From assembly GCA_018221285.1 (NCBI GenBank), contig JAAOYJ010000003.1, positions 1-64,000 of the forward strand: DNA of 64,000 bases, given 5' to 3'. Below, one piece after another: positions 5,636 through 9,839 of this stretch. The notes under the pieces are model-generated. The model had not been told where the DNA came from. It saw only the letters and a program-made list of their open reading frames with translations, and searched no databases. The position numbers were made by a program, and so were the translations under genes. Source of the DNA: Candidatus Pacearchaeota archaeon. Lineage in GTDB: Archaea > Nanobdellota > Nanobdellia > Pacearchaeales > GW2011-AR1. Each line of letters starts with the position of its first letter. The first letter of the stretch is position 1.

Positions 5636-6292
5636 ATGAATCTTATTAATGAAATTTCTAGTGAATTGACTAAGAGAAATATTTTTCATAAGATAGAGAA
5701 AAACTTCATAAGGACTAGAAAAAGCAAAATAAAGGTCCCAATAATAACTAATGACATCGCTTATCTCTTAGGAGTAATTAGAGGGGACGGATCATTATGC
5801 CAATCCAAAAGGAAAAAAGGAGGTTATCATTATATATTTAGAATCTATTCTGGAGAAGAGAAGTACCTAAATTATCTTAATAAACTATTCAAAGATTTAT
5901 TTTTGATAGAAGGAAAAATAATAAAAGATAAAAGAAAACAAAATGCTTATCATTTAGTAATCAAAAACGTGATTATCTTCTTTTATTTCGTTAGTTTAGG
6001 AAGTGAAATTGGTAAAAAGAAATTTGGAAAGCTTCCTCAAATAGTTAAAGATAAACAAAGATATTTTAGACATTATCTTGCAGGACTTGTTGATACCGAC
6101 GGAAGCACCTATAATAAAAGGATTCAATTAAAACAGAAAAGCAGACCCTTATTAAAAAACATTAGAGTTCTCGCGAATAGAATGGGTTTAAATTGTTCTG
6201 AACCAAAAGTAAATTATACTAATCAAAAACCTTACTACTATATCAGATTTGACAATAGATTGCCATTAAGATTGAAACAATCAAATTTTTAA
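5636..6292 (+). CDS. Free-standing LAGLIDADG homing endonuclease
   Basis: 218 residues with two LAGLIDADG helices: LLGVIRGDGSL (about residue 43) and LAGLVDTDGST (about residue 147). Both keep the catalytic acidic residues, so the enzyme looks active. It is not inside an intein or intron frame. It stands between a shortened S51 peptidase gene and tRNA-Thr, with its own TATA box (about 5606-5616). The C-terminal part is basic and probably DNA-binding. The target site is unknown; the neighbouring genes are candidates. Confidence 0.85.
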   Translation: MNLINEISSELTKRNIFHKIEKNFIRTRKSKIKVPIITNDIAYLLGVIRGDGSLCQSKRKKGGYHYIFRIYSGEEKYLNYLNKLFKDLFLIEGKIIKDKRKQNAYHLVIKNVIIFFYFVSLGSEIGKKKFGKLPQIVKDKQRYFRHYLAGLVDTDGSTYNKRIQLKQKSRPLLKNIRVLANRMGLNCSEPKVNYTNQKPYYYIRFDNRLPLRLKQSNF

Positions 6293-8436: not shown

Positions 8437-8490
8437 TTACTTCAATTTAACAGCAGTACCGTAAGCCAGCATTTCTGAAGCTCCTTGCAT
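8437..8490 (-). pseudogene. Displaced, recoded copy of the ybjQ-like 3' end
   Basis: Reads ATG CAA GGA ... TAA, 17 sense codons giving exactly the same peptide as the last 17 codons of the intact gene at 8592-8915 (MQGASEMLAYGTAVKLK). The two copies differ at 15 of 54 bases, all synonymous. No start or rest of a gene lies upstream of this copy. It is either the remnant of a tandem paralogue or the original gene end displaced by the element at 8491-8591. Confidence 0.75.
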
Positions 8491-8591
8491 TATGCGAAGC
8501 GACTGTGTCGGCGAGCGTCCAACGAAGTTGGGAATATAATAAACTATGCAAATGACTGTGTCGATTTGCGTCCGACAACGTCGGTGCAAGG
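8491..8591. repeat. Palindromic element between duplicated ybjQ gene ends
   Basis: 101 bp, clearly richer in GC than the surroundings. It holds two similar units of about 37 bases (8494-8531 and 8548-8583), each with GACTGTGTCG, five variable bases, CGTCC and a second hairpin. The second hairpin varies in a compensated way (CCAAC-gaa-GTTGG against CCGAC-aac-GTCGG). The second unit's first hairpin (GCAAATGAC-TGT-GTCgATTTGC, 8548-8569) recurs at 47380-47398 and 63091-63110. Confidence 0.7.
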
Positions 8592-8915
8592 TTATTTGAG
8601 TTTCACGGCTGTCCCATACGCCAACATCTCGCTAGCACCTTGCATTACCATTGAAGTCATAAATCTCACATTGATAATAGCATCCGCCTTTAAATCAATC
8701 GCCTCATTAGCCATTCGATTAAACGCCTCATCTCTTGCATTCTTTGTCATCTCTGTATAAGTTTTTATCTCACCACCGACGATGTTTTTGAACCCAGCAC
8801 CAATGTCTCTTCCAATATTTCTCGCCCGAACAGTACTTCCTTTAACAACTCCCAAAATCTCAGCAACCTTTTTTCCTGGAATTTCTTCACTTGTTGTAAT
8901 AATTATTTCACTCAT
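8592..8915 (-). CDS. ybjQ: YbjQ/UPF0145 family protein
   Basis: 107 residues, the usual length. It starts with IITTSEEIPGKKV, has GSTVRARNIGRDIGAG and a conserved middle (NARDEAFNRMANEA, ADAIINVRF), as in the pentameric YbjQ (DUF74) family, whose role is unknown. It overlaps the upstream 69-aa membrane protein gene by eight bases, suggesting a functional pair. The last 17 codons use an unusually GC-rich codon set compared with a second copy of the same end 155 bases downstream. Confidence 0.85.
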   Translation of the reverse strand: MSEIIITTSEEIPGKKVAEILGVVKGSTVRARNIGRDIGAGFKNIVGGEIKTYTEMTKNARDEAFNRMANEAIDLKADAIINVRFMTSMVMQGASEMLAYGTAVKLK

Positions 8916-9147: not shown

Positions 9148-9702
9148 TTATCCCTCAACAACCTCTGCCTTCCCCCCATCAATCAAAATCTTTGCAATCT
9201 CCTTAGGGATATTCGCAATTTGCCCTTTATCAAAACCTCCCATCTTATTCCCATCCAAATCTACAAACTCTTCGACAGGATTATTAAAAACAACCAACTC
9301 ATTCTTTGATTCCTCCTCTTTCTTTCCATTCAAAGTCTCATTAAGACTCTTATCAGAAACATCTATCGACTTCATCAATTCCTCAAACAACGACTTCTCA
9401 AACGCAAACATATTATCAAAATCTTGTTTAGAAATCCCTGTCTCAGCAGCAATCAAAATCAGATTCAAAAGCTTCTTCCTCCTTATCCTCATTAACTCCC
9501 TAAACAAAATCCCTGCATTCTCAAGCTGTTTCTTTGTCTTCACAACAACATCTGAAAAATCATCGTCCTCCTTCGACGCTATCTCCTTCTTCTCCTTAAG
9601 ATACTTCGCAACCTTAACAACAAAATTCTTAGCAATCGGCTGCAACTGCTCAGAATACCTCTCCTTCCTAGCAGCTTCGTATATGTCTTTGTAAGTTATC
9701 AT
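9148..9702 (-). CDS. Archaeal GINS subunit (Gins51-type)
   Basis: 184 residues from the ATG at 9702. The start is chosen because MITYKDIYEAARKE is the typical opening of archaeal GINS. A longer frame from 9759 only reads through an inserted element. The A-domain is helical (FRELMRIRRKKLLNLILIAAETG), followed by an acidic linker and a small C-terminal B-domain (VEEFVDLDGNKMGGFDKGQ...IAKILIDGGKAEVV). GINS bridges the MCM helicase and the RecJ/Cdc45-like protein; a RecJ-like gene is at 21527. The first 33 bases are present twice, flanking the element at 9703-9805. A purine-rich GGGAGGG lies just upstream of the chosen ATG. Confidence 0.85.
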   Translation of the reverse strand: MITYKDIYEAARKERYSEQLQPIAKNFVVKVAKYLKEKKEIASKEDDDFSDVVVKTKKQLENAGILFRELMRIRRKKLLNLILIAAETGISKQDFDNMFAFEKSLFEELMKSIDVSDKSLNETLNGKKEEESKNELVVFNNPVEEFVDLDGNKMGGFDKGQIANIPKEIAKILIDGGKAEVVEG

Positions 9703-9839
9703 CTTATCCCTCCCGAAGCTGCGCCGTGGTATCCATCGGAGGCAATGAAAAGATGCCACCGTTCAGTGTTTAGAGGAAGTTCAAAAGAAACCAACGGGTT
9801 TCTTTTAGCAGCTTCGTATATGTCTTTGTAAGTTATCAT
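9703..9839. repeat. Hairpin element plus duplicated GINS start
   Basis: A 34-bp sequence at 9669-9702 (GINS codons 1-11) is repeated exactly at 9806-9839. The upstream copy starts with an ATG that overlaps the TGA of the exonuclease gene, the usual coupling in this genome. The 103 bp between hold a 10-bp-stem hairpin (AAAAGAAACC/GGTTTCTTTT) and a second stem (GTGGTATC/GATGCCAC on the plus strand). The upstream copy opens a 46-codon ORF whose TGA overlaps the real GINS ATG. The plus strand shares GGAGGCAAT and TTCAGTGTTTAGA with the element before SRP54. Confidence 0.75.

Follow-up and report, generated by a model that had tools for sequence, protein, structure and literature searches.

The ybjQ gene of a Pacearchaeota archaeon is accompanied by two 3' ends that encode the same residues and differ only silently, placed on either side of a short hairpin-rich insert; judged by its codons, the end attached to the gene is the newcomer, and the displaced end looks native. 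Other protein genes, and roughly one third of the tRNA genes examined, show the same order of parts: the gene with its new end, a short inverted copy of the site of insertion, a hairpin element, and the former end. We appear to be dealing with mobile DNA of a kind that has been little studied and that mends the genes in which it lands. We consider it on balance probable that a palindromic mobile element was inserted here together with a replacement gene terminus, swapping the end of ybjQ.

The window, the whole stretch of 64,000 nucleotides that was analysed, belongs to a metagenome-assembled genome of 863 kb in 43 contigs (81.8% complete, 5.8% contamination; G000 below). Its ybjQ gene (YbjQ_1, PF01906; 107 aa, 128 bits, single copy in the genome) lies on the minus strand at 8592..8915 and runs into a putative replacement 3' terminus, T', at 8592..8645, which consists of the last 17 codons and TAA (ATGCAAGGTGCTAGCGAGATGTTGGCGTATGGGACAGCCGTGAAACTCAAATAA) and is rich in unusual codons. 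A second, native-looking terminus, likewise of 17 codons and TAA (ATGCAAGGAGCTTCAGAAATGCTGGCTTACGGTACTGCTGTTAAATTGAAGTAA), stands on the same strand at 8437..8490 as an orphan with no gene body upstream. Both translate as MQGASEMLAYGTAVKLK followed by a stop, are separated by 101 bp, and differ at 15 of 54 bases and at no residue (12 silent to 0 replacement codons by hand count), which bears out the positions and counts of an earlier, sequence-only reading. That reading had also noticed rarer codons in the gene copy, and codon usage measured against the genome itself agrees: the gene-side end has z = -2.37 (GC3 0.53), compared with -0.33 (GC3 0.27) for the orphan and 0.09 (GC3 0.26) for the gene body. 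Serine is encoded by AGC in the gene-side end, whereas the orphan and G001, a genome of the same genus, have TCA; it is because of the unusual codons and this different serine codon class that we regard the gene-side end as the newcomer.

Comparison with relatives points the same way. Among the tails of about 37 relatives, many differ from the orphan by 6-12 nt, and none comes closer than 10 nt to the gene-side end; a tree of the ends, built as the earlier reading had proposed, sets the two apart, and at 51 nt is so short that it is weak. No donor of the gene-side end was found among the roughly 37 tails or in viral contigs, none of which carried that end or the hairpin element described below. 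The argument that the two sequences diverged long ago and were juxtaposed recently is sound in its logic, and import of a terminus from a diverged relative is the better of the two options that had been offered, the gene-side end being an outlier in both codons and distance. We infer its foreign origin and its route and, since some of the end pairs at other genes are identical or evolve in concert, its recency as well. The other option, a deletion within tandem ybjQ paralogues, would also produce an intact gene with a diverged tail behind it, and had been tied to the discovery of a relative with two full tandem genes. No Pacearchaeota ybjQ locus among those compared has two genes, which leaves such a deletion unsupported; the spacer, moreover, is a mobile repeat, and the layout is also found at single-copy core genes and tRNAs, making this explanation scarcely credible. 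Tandem ybjQ paralogues were seen only in distant archaea, mostly Poseidoniales/marine group II (L072-L087), where the second copy is 31-39% identical to the query.

Within the 101 bp that separate the two ends are two units of family A, a hairpin repeat found dispersed in the genome, for which reason a single unique 101-bp element was rejected. Each unit is a short variable-stem hairpin followed by GACGCTCGCCGACACAGTCGCTTCGCATA. Unit 2 (8554..8584, minus strand) has the hairpin CCGAC-GTT-GTCGG and a core with a CGACACAGTC loop on a GCAAAT..ATTTGC stem; unit 1 (8490..8531, minus strand), whose last base overlaps the orphan, has the hairpin CCAAC-TTC-GTTGG and the core ACGCTCGCCGACACAGTCGCTTCGCATAA. 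About eight copies occur in 600 kb of G000—the sequence covered was roughly 70% of G000 plus portions of four other genomes, and the compared genomes are almost all metagenome-assembled—and these sites are intergenic, directly before a start codon, or in frame within genes. The core is present in G001 and G028 and absent from 53 other relatives searched. In-frame copies lie at C43:10970 (L005), in a lysine-rich protein, and at C35:250 (L010), in the N-terminal part of an ABC ATPase-like protein, and such repeats add peptides such as RGRSPTRSLRI. The ybjQ insert contains no recombinase, integrase or endonuclease gene, and the Rfam families in the window are tRNAs only. A hairpin with an ACACAGT loop was rejected as a general marker, few of its 34 motif occurrences being at gene ends.

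The arrangement is not peculiar to ybjQ. The last 10 residues plus stop codon recur within 300 nt downstream at 3 of 636 ORFs, compared with an expectation of 0.0 when tails are paired with the flanks of other genes. Scanning G000 for gene ends with a repeat close by brought up the tails of aRF1 (C9:57629), of FEN1 (C9:90629), where the PIP box is what has been duplicated, and of an unnamed gene (C36:23600), together with the 5' end of GINS51. The ybjQ end of G028 is again duplicated and silently recoded around a family A repeat, and this genome has two further tail cases, one of them a 625-aa gene; ybjQ of G008 is followed by an array of tail-plus-hairpin units whose hairpins are other than family A. 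Across these genes the duplications measure 16 to 57 nt, and inserts of this class are about 26-160 nt long, hairpin-rich, free of gene remnants, and spread over many unrelated sites.

At GINS51 (PF22090; 9148..9702, minus strand), 1 kb from the ybjQ insertion, it is the 5' end that is affected. The first ~34 nt of the gene (9669-9702) form a putative replacement 5' terminus, and the displaced 5' terminus (ATGATAACTTACAAAGACATATACGAAGCTGCTA) lies at 9806..9839; the duplicated end encodes MITYKDIYEAA. Between the two, on the same strand, are a palindromic element of a second family, B (9726..9806), and the inverted copy of the insertion site (GCAGCTTC, 9715..9722), which leads into a new ribosome-binding site at 9708-9714 (GGGAGGG) and then the new ATG. 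The displaced terminus begins a 46-codon frame (9699-9839) that is open in the genomes compared and whose TGA overlaps the new ATG. A homologous insert is present at GINS51 in five genomes (G000, G001, G008, G024, and G075), and in G000 and G001 the two ends evolve in concert within species. Family B, whose core of ~81 nt is without locus-specific parts, occurs in 20 of 180 family genomes, from 18 genera, and its hairpin stems vary compensatorily among copies. Because it is 86% identical between G000 and G024, compared with ~64% for the GINS51 body, the element moves between lineages. Of 28 further family B copies, no more than a few show duplication beyond the null expectation, and it is absent from most intergenic copies. 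Two other family B sites were seen in passing. A pilin-like gene of G030, MKNKRGWIRIVE (L352:1460-1640), carries two identical 39-nt 5' ends, one on each side of the element, and an inverted copy, GCTTCAAC, spans the insertion point, which makes this look like a very recent event; a new ribosome-binding site and a new start codon come after the inverted copy. In G008:C13 (L185:16711-17255), five family B elements form a tandem array with a period of ~121 bp, alternating with another hairpin (GCACGACAA...TTGTCGTGC).

The paired ends differ in how far they have diverged. Those of GINS51 in G000 and G001, of the pilin-like gene in G030 (39/39), and of the C36 gene in G001 (38/38) are identical, which means that these copies, at a minimum, arose or were homogenised where they now lie. 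The aRF1 ends of G000 differ at 20 of 51 bases and have a species-specific alanine in common, and 27 bases behind the stop are identical in G000 and G001; the aRF1 insertion is thus probably at least as old as the split of these two genomes, with the displaced end later lost in G001. Codon usage of the gene-side aRF1 and C36 ends is not atypical. Given the identical and concerted pairs and the shared alanine, copying in place or gene conversion must act at some sites. Eight diverged pairs, on the other hand, together show about 50 silent versus 16 replacement codons (hand count), where by our own estimate a drifting displaced copy should show more replacements. This leaves two explanations: a recent joining of ends whose sources had diverged, or use of both ends.

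In the latter case, the segment from substitute end to element would be removed, as DNA or as RNA, in some cells, and both termini would be under protein-level selection. The silent-dominated divergence, seen in nearly all of the diverged pairs, fits this well, as do the species-specific residues common to both ends in the aRF1 and GINS51 pairs and the open mini-ORF of the displaced GINS51 end. It would be favoured, too, by an old ybjQ insertion, which is what the degenerate family A unit directly behind ybjQ in G001 allows for. That same genome, however, has lost its displaced ybjQ and aRF1 ends with no visible harm; tail-type displaced ends also lack a consistent frame, and no known splicing motif was identified. 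We think it unlikely that both ends are used and prefer a recent joining of diverged ends, because precedents exist for the latter in e14/icd and in fungal mitochondrial hybrids.

Transfer RNA genes show the layout as well. About 8 of 21 tRNAs in G000 carry a second copy of their 3' or 5' end, separated from the first by hairpin DNA, compared with 0 of 909 in the null; the loci noted are C42:111416, C28:8149, C9:4626, C9:101225, C9:101478, C4:1008, and C26:9665 (loci L096, L114, L115, L120, L126, L111); an additional "tRNA-Gln" match, on C35, is probably spurious. Cases at the 3' end number 18 across all the DNA that was read; in these the duplicated part begins in the T-loop, and identity stops near the tRNA end (within 6 nt in 17 of the 18 and within 3 nt in 15, with one outlier at 18 nt). 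An ordinary long target-site duplication was rejected on these grounds, identity mostly ending at or near the gene end and most intergenic copies lacking a duplication. In many tRNAs of G000, the reverse complement of the T-arm is found close behind the tRNA. Homing endonuclease genes of the LAGLIDADG family were also seen near tRNAs: one is free-standing in the window (5636-6292, plus strand), between a peptidase S51 gene and tRNA-Thr, and another (C28:8417-8971) lies behind a tRNA-Ser with a duplicated 3' end. The idea that the former belongs to a gene hybrid with the peptidase gene or with tRNA-Thr was rejected, as no duplicated ends were found around it.

A small inverted copy belongs to the layout. 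At ybjQ, TAATGCAAGG is common to both copies at the junctions, and divergence begins beyond it. X (TGCAAGG), the first bases of the duplicated segment, is at the insertion point, 8638..8644; a second copy at 8483..8489 starts the displaced terminus and abuts the element; and the reverse complement of X, X^rc (CCTTGCA), is at 8585..8591, directly behind the new stop codon, all on the minus strand. In each of eight protein tails, the sequence that immediately follows the new stop codon is the reverse complement of the bases with which the duplicated segment begins (combined p ~5e-8 against 1695 ORFs, a value that treats the cases as independent when related loci are not entirely so). Other genes served as the null because synonymous variants of the same tail are uninformative for this purpose. 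The stem of X and X^rc reaches 12 bp, stop codon included, at the C36 gene of G000; at GINS51 and the G030 pilin-like gene, the inverted copy is followed by the new ribosome-binding site and start codon; and among the 18 tRNA cases X^rc of at least 6 nt is found in 13, compared with 5.6% of controls.

Simple import gives no account of X^rc. Another possibility is that the terminus was duplicated in place at insertion and the gene-side copy then changed silently to build a stem-loop with X^rc. This idea is partly supported, both by X^rc itself and by the existence of identical pairs, and the gene-side end with X^rc folds better than synonymous variants at the C36 gene of G000 (p=0.003), at aRF1 of G001 (p=0.005), and at ybjQ (p=0.05). 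At ybjQ, however, the gain is small (-21.0 kcal/mol for the gene-side end versus -20.2 for the orphan), going from TCA to AGC takes three changes via non-serine codons, and the absence of replacements in the displaced copy is left unexplained; we judge structural recoding improbable. A metagenomic assembly chimera of two strains, conceivable for a genome with the completeness and contamination given above, sits badly with the consistency of X^rc and with boundaries at gene ends; the layout is seen in several independent metagenome-assembled genomes, the GINS51 insertion is orthologous in G000 and G001, and a chimera is very improbable.

If import with the element is what occurred, a two-unit family A element would have become established inside the 3' end of ybjQ along with a substitute terminus, most likely from the same gene of a diverged relative and brought in by recombination through the gene body and X. 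The gene body would then run on into the substitute 17 codons and stop, leaving the protein unchanged, and behind the new stop would come X^rc, the hairpin element and the native terminus, displaced and outside the gene. Two functional, long-diverged ends joined recently in this way would show silent differences only. In its outcome this would resemble the attL/attR pair that e14 forms in icd, or the foreign C-termini of fungal mitochondrial hybrids. A related but different history is an attL/attR scar, left by a larger virus or plasmid with a tyrosine integrase, which would have attached at the ybjQ 3' end, carried its own copy of that end, and since been reduced by deletion to hairpin DNA of about 100 bp. 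Integrases do leave an incoming copy that restores the end and a displaced native copy in tRNA and protein genes, the T-loop in which the tRNA duplications begin is a common integrase crossover site, and G000 has two integrase-family genes; these, like its LAGLIDADG genes, are not within the inserts. G028 also has larger cassettes between gene-tail copies, two with HEPN/MNT-like gene pairs. Against this, the inserts have the small size, hairpin content, lack of gene remnants, and range of unrelated sites described above; family B copies are also intergenic without duplications; 5' ends are affected too; and X^rc is not an integrase feature. We judge such a scar rather unlikely, if the likeliest of the competing histories. 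The two G028 cassettes (G028:C1:20767-22485, L131-L132; G028:C2:13746-17095, L146) hold two genes each, by eye putative HEPN/nucleotidyltransferase toxin-antitoxin pairs, and on either side of each stands a copy of ~45-70 bp from the 3' end of the neighbouring gene, the two copies being nearly identical; these cassettes may reflect a related process.

Beyond the preferred account of ybjQ, we tentatively propose, as a possibility short of probable, that Pacearchaeota harbor a distinct class of miniature mobile DNA that inserts near gene ends (in tRNAs apparently in the T- and D-loops), makes or brings a functional replacement terminus, and marks its target with an inverted copy, through a mechanism that no transposon is known to use. 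If true, tiny non-coding elements could enter essential single-copy genes of highly reduced genomes—release factor, FEN1, GINS, tRNAs—and leave them unbroken; gene ends would be swapped between species, and phylogenies of short regions as well as tRNA and gene-end annotation would be misled. A genome in which many loci pair an old terminus with a new one is also a readable natural experiment from which the mechanism could be worked out.

Short palindromic repeats dispersed through genomes, sometimes in frame within genes, are familiar as Rickettsia palindromic elements, REP sequences, and MITEs. The elements described here resemble them in being dispersed, hairpin-forming, and multicopy; they differ in that a fixed-length target-site duplication is not present at every copy and that no cognate Y1 (REP-associated) transposase (PF01797) was matched in G000, a genome ~82% complete. 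To our knowledge, neither a recoded gene end nor an X^rc is known for any of these repeats. Archaeal integrative elements place a partial tRNA 3' end beside a complete tRNA (PMC9897764), as is also seen here, but their inserts are ~9-23 kb, whereas ours are 44-160 nt of hairpin DNA at about one third of the tRNAs read. Integration of e14 into icd of E. coli K-12 (PMC6379469) provides a closer precedent: the element brings a recoded gene end (165 bp, with 12 nucleotide changes and only two conservative residue changes; PMC11148124), the native end is displaced to the far side, and a short identical core marks both junctions, as at ybjQ. Unlike e14, a prophage with an integrase gene, the ybjQ-type inserts are 36-140 bp of hairpin repeats with no integrase, are found at many sites per genome and at 5' ends too, and have an inverted site copy behind the new end. 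The hybrids of fungal mitochondrial DNA carry a homing-endonuclease ORF in their insert, where ours has none, and arose in an organelle rather than an archaeal chromosome; at ybjQ a foreign origin of the terminus is supported by codon usage and distances, with no donor found. Yet their layout is alike: in Allomyces atp6 and in Glomus atp6, atp9, cox2, and nad3, a foreign C-terminus is joined in phase to the resident gene, with the native one downstream, the protein is largely kept while the DNA is widely different, C-termini of 63.5% DNA identity stand side by side, and a native C-terminus differs only silently from that of a relative (PMC3630166).
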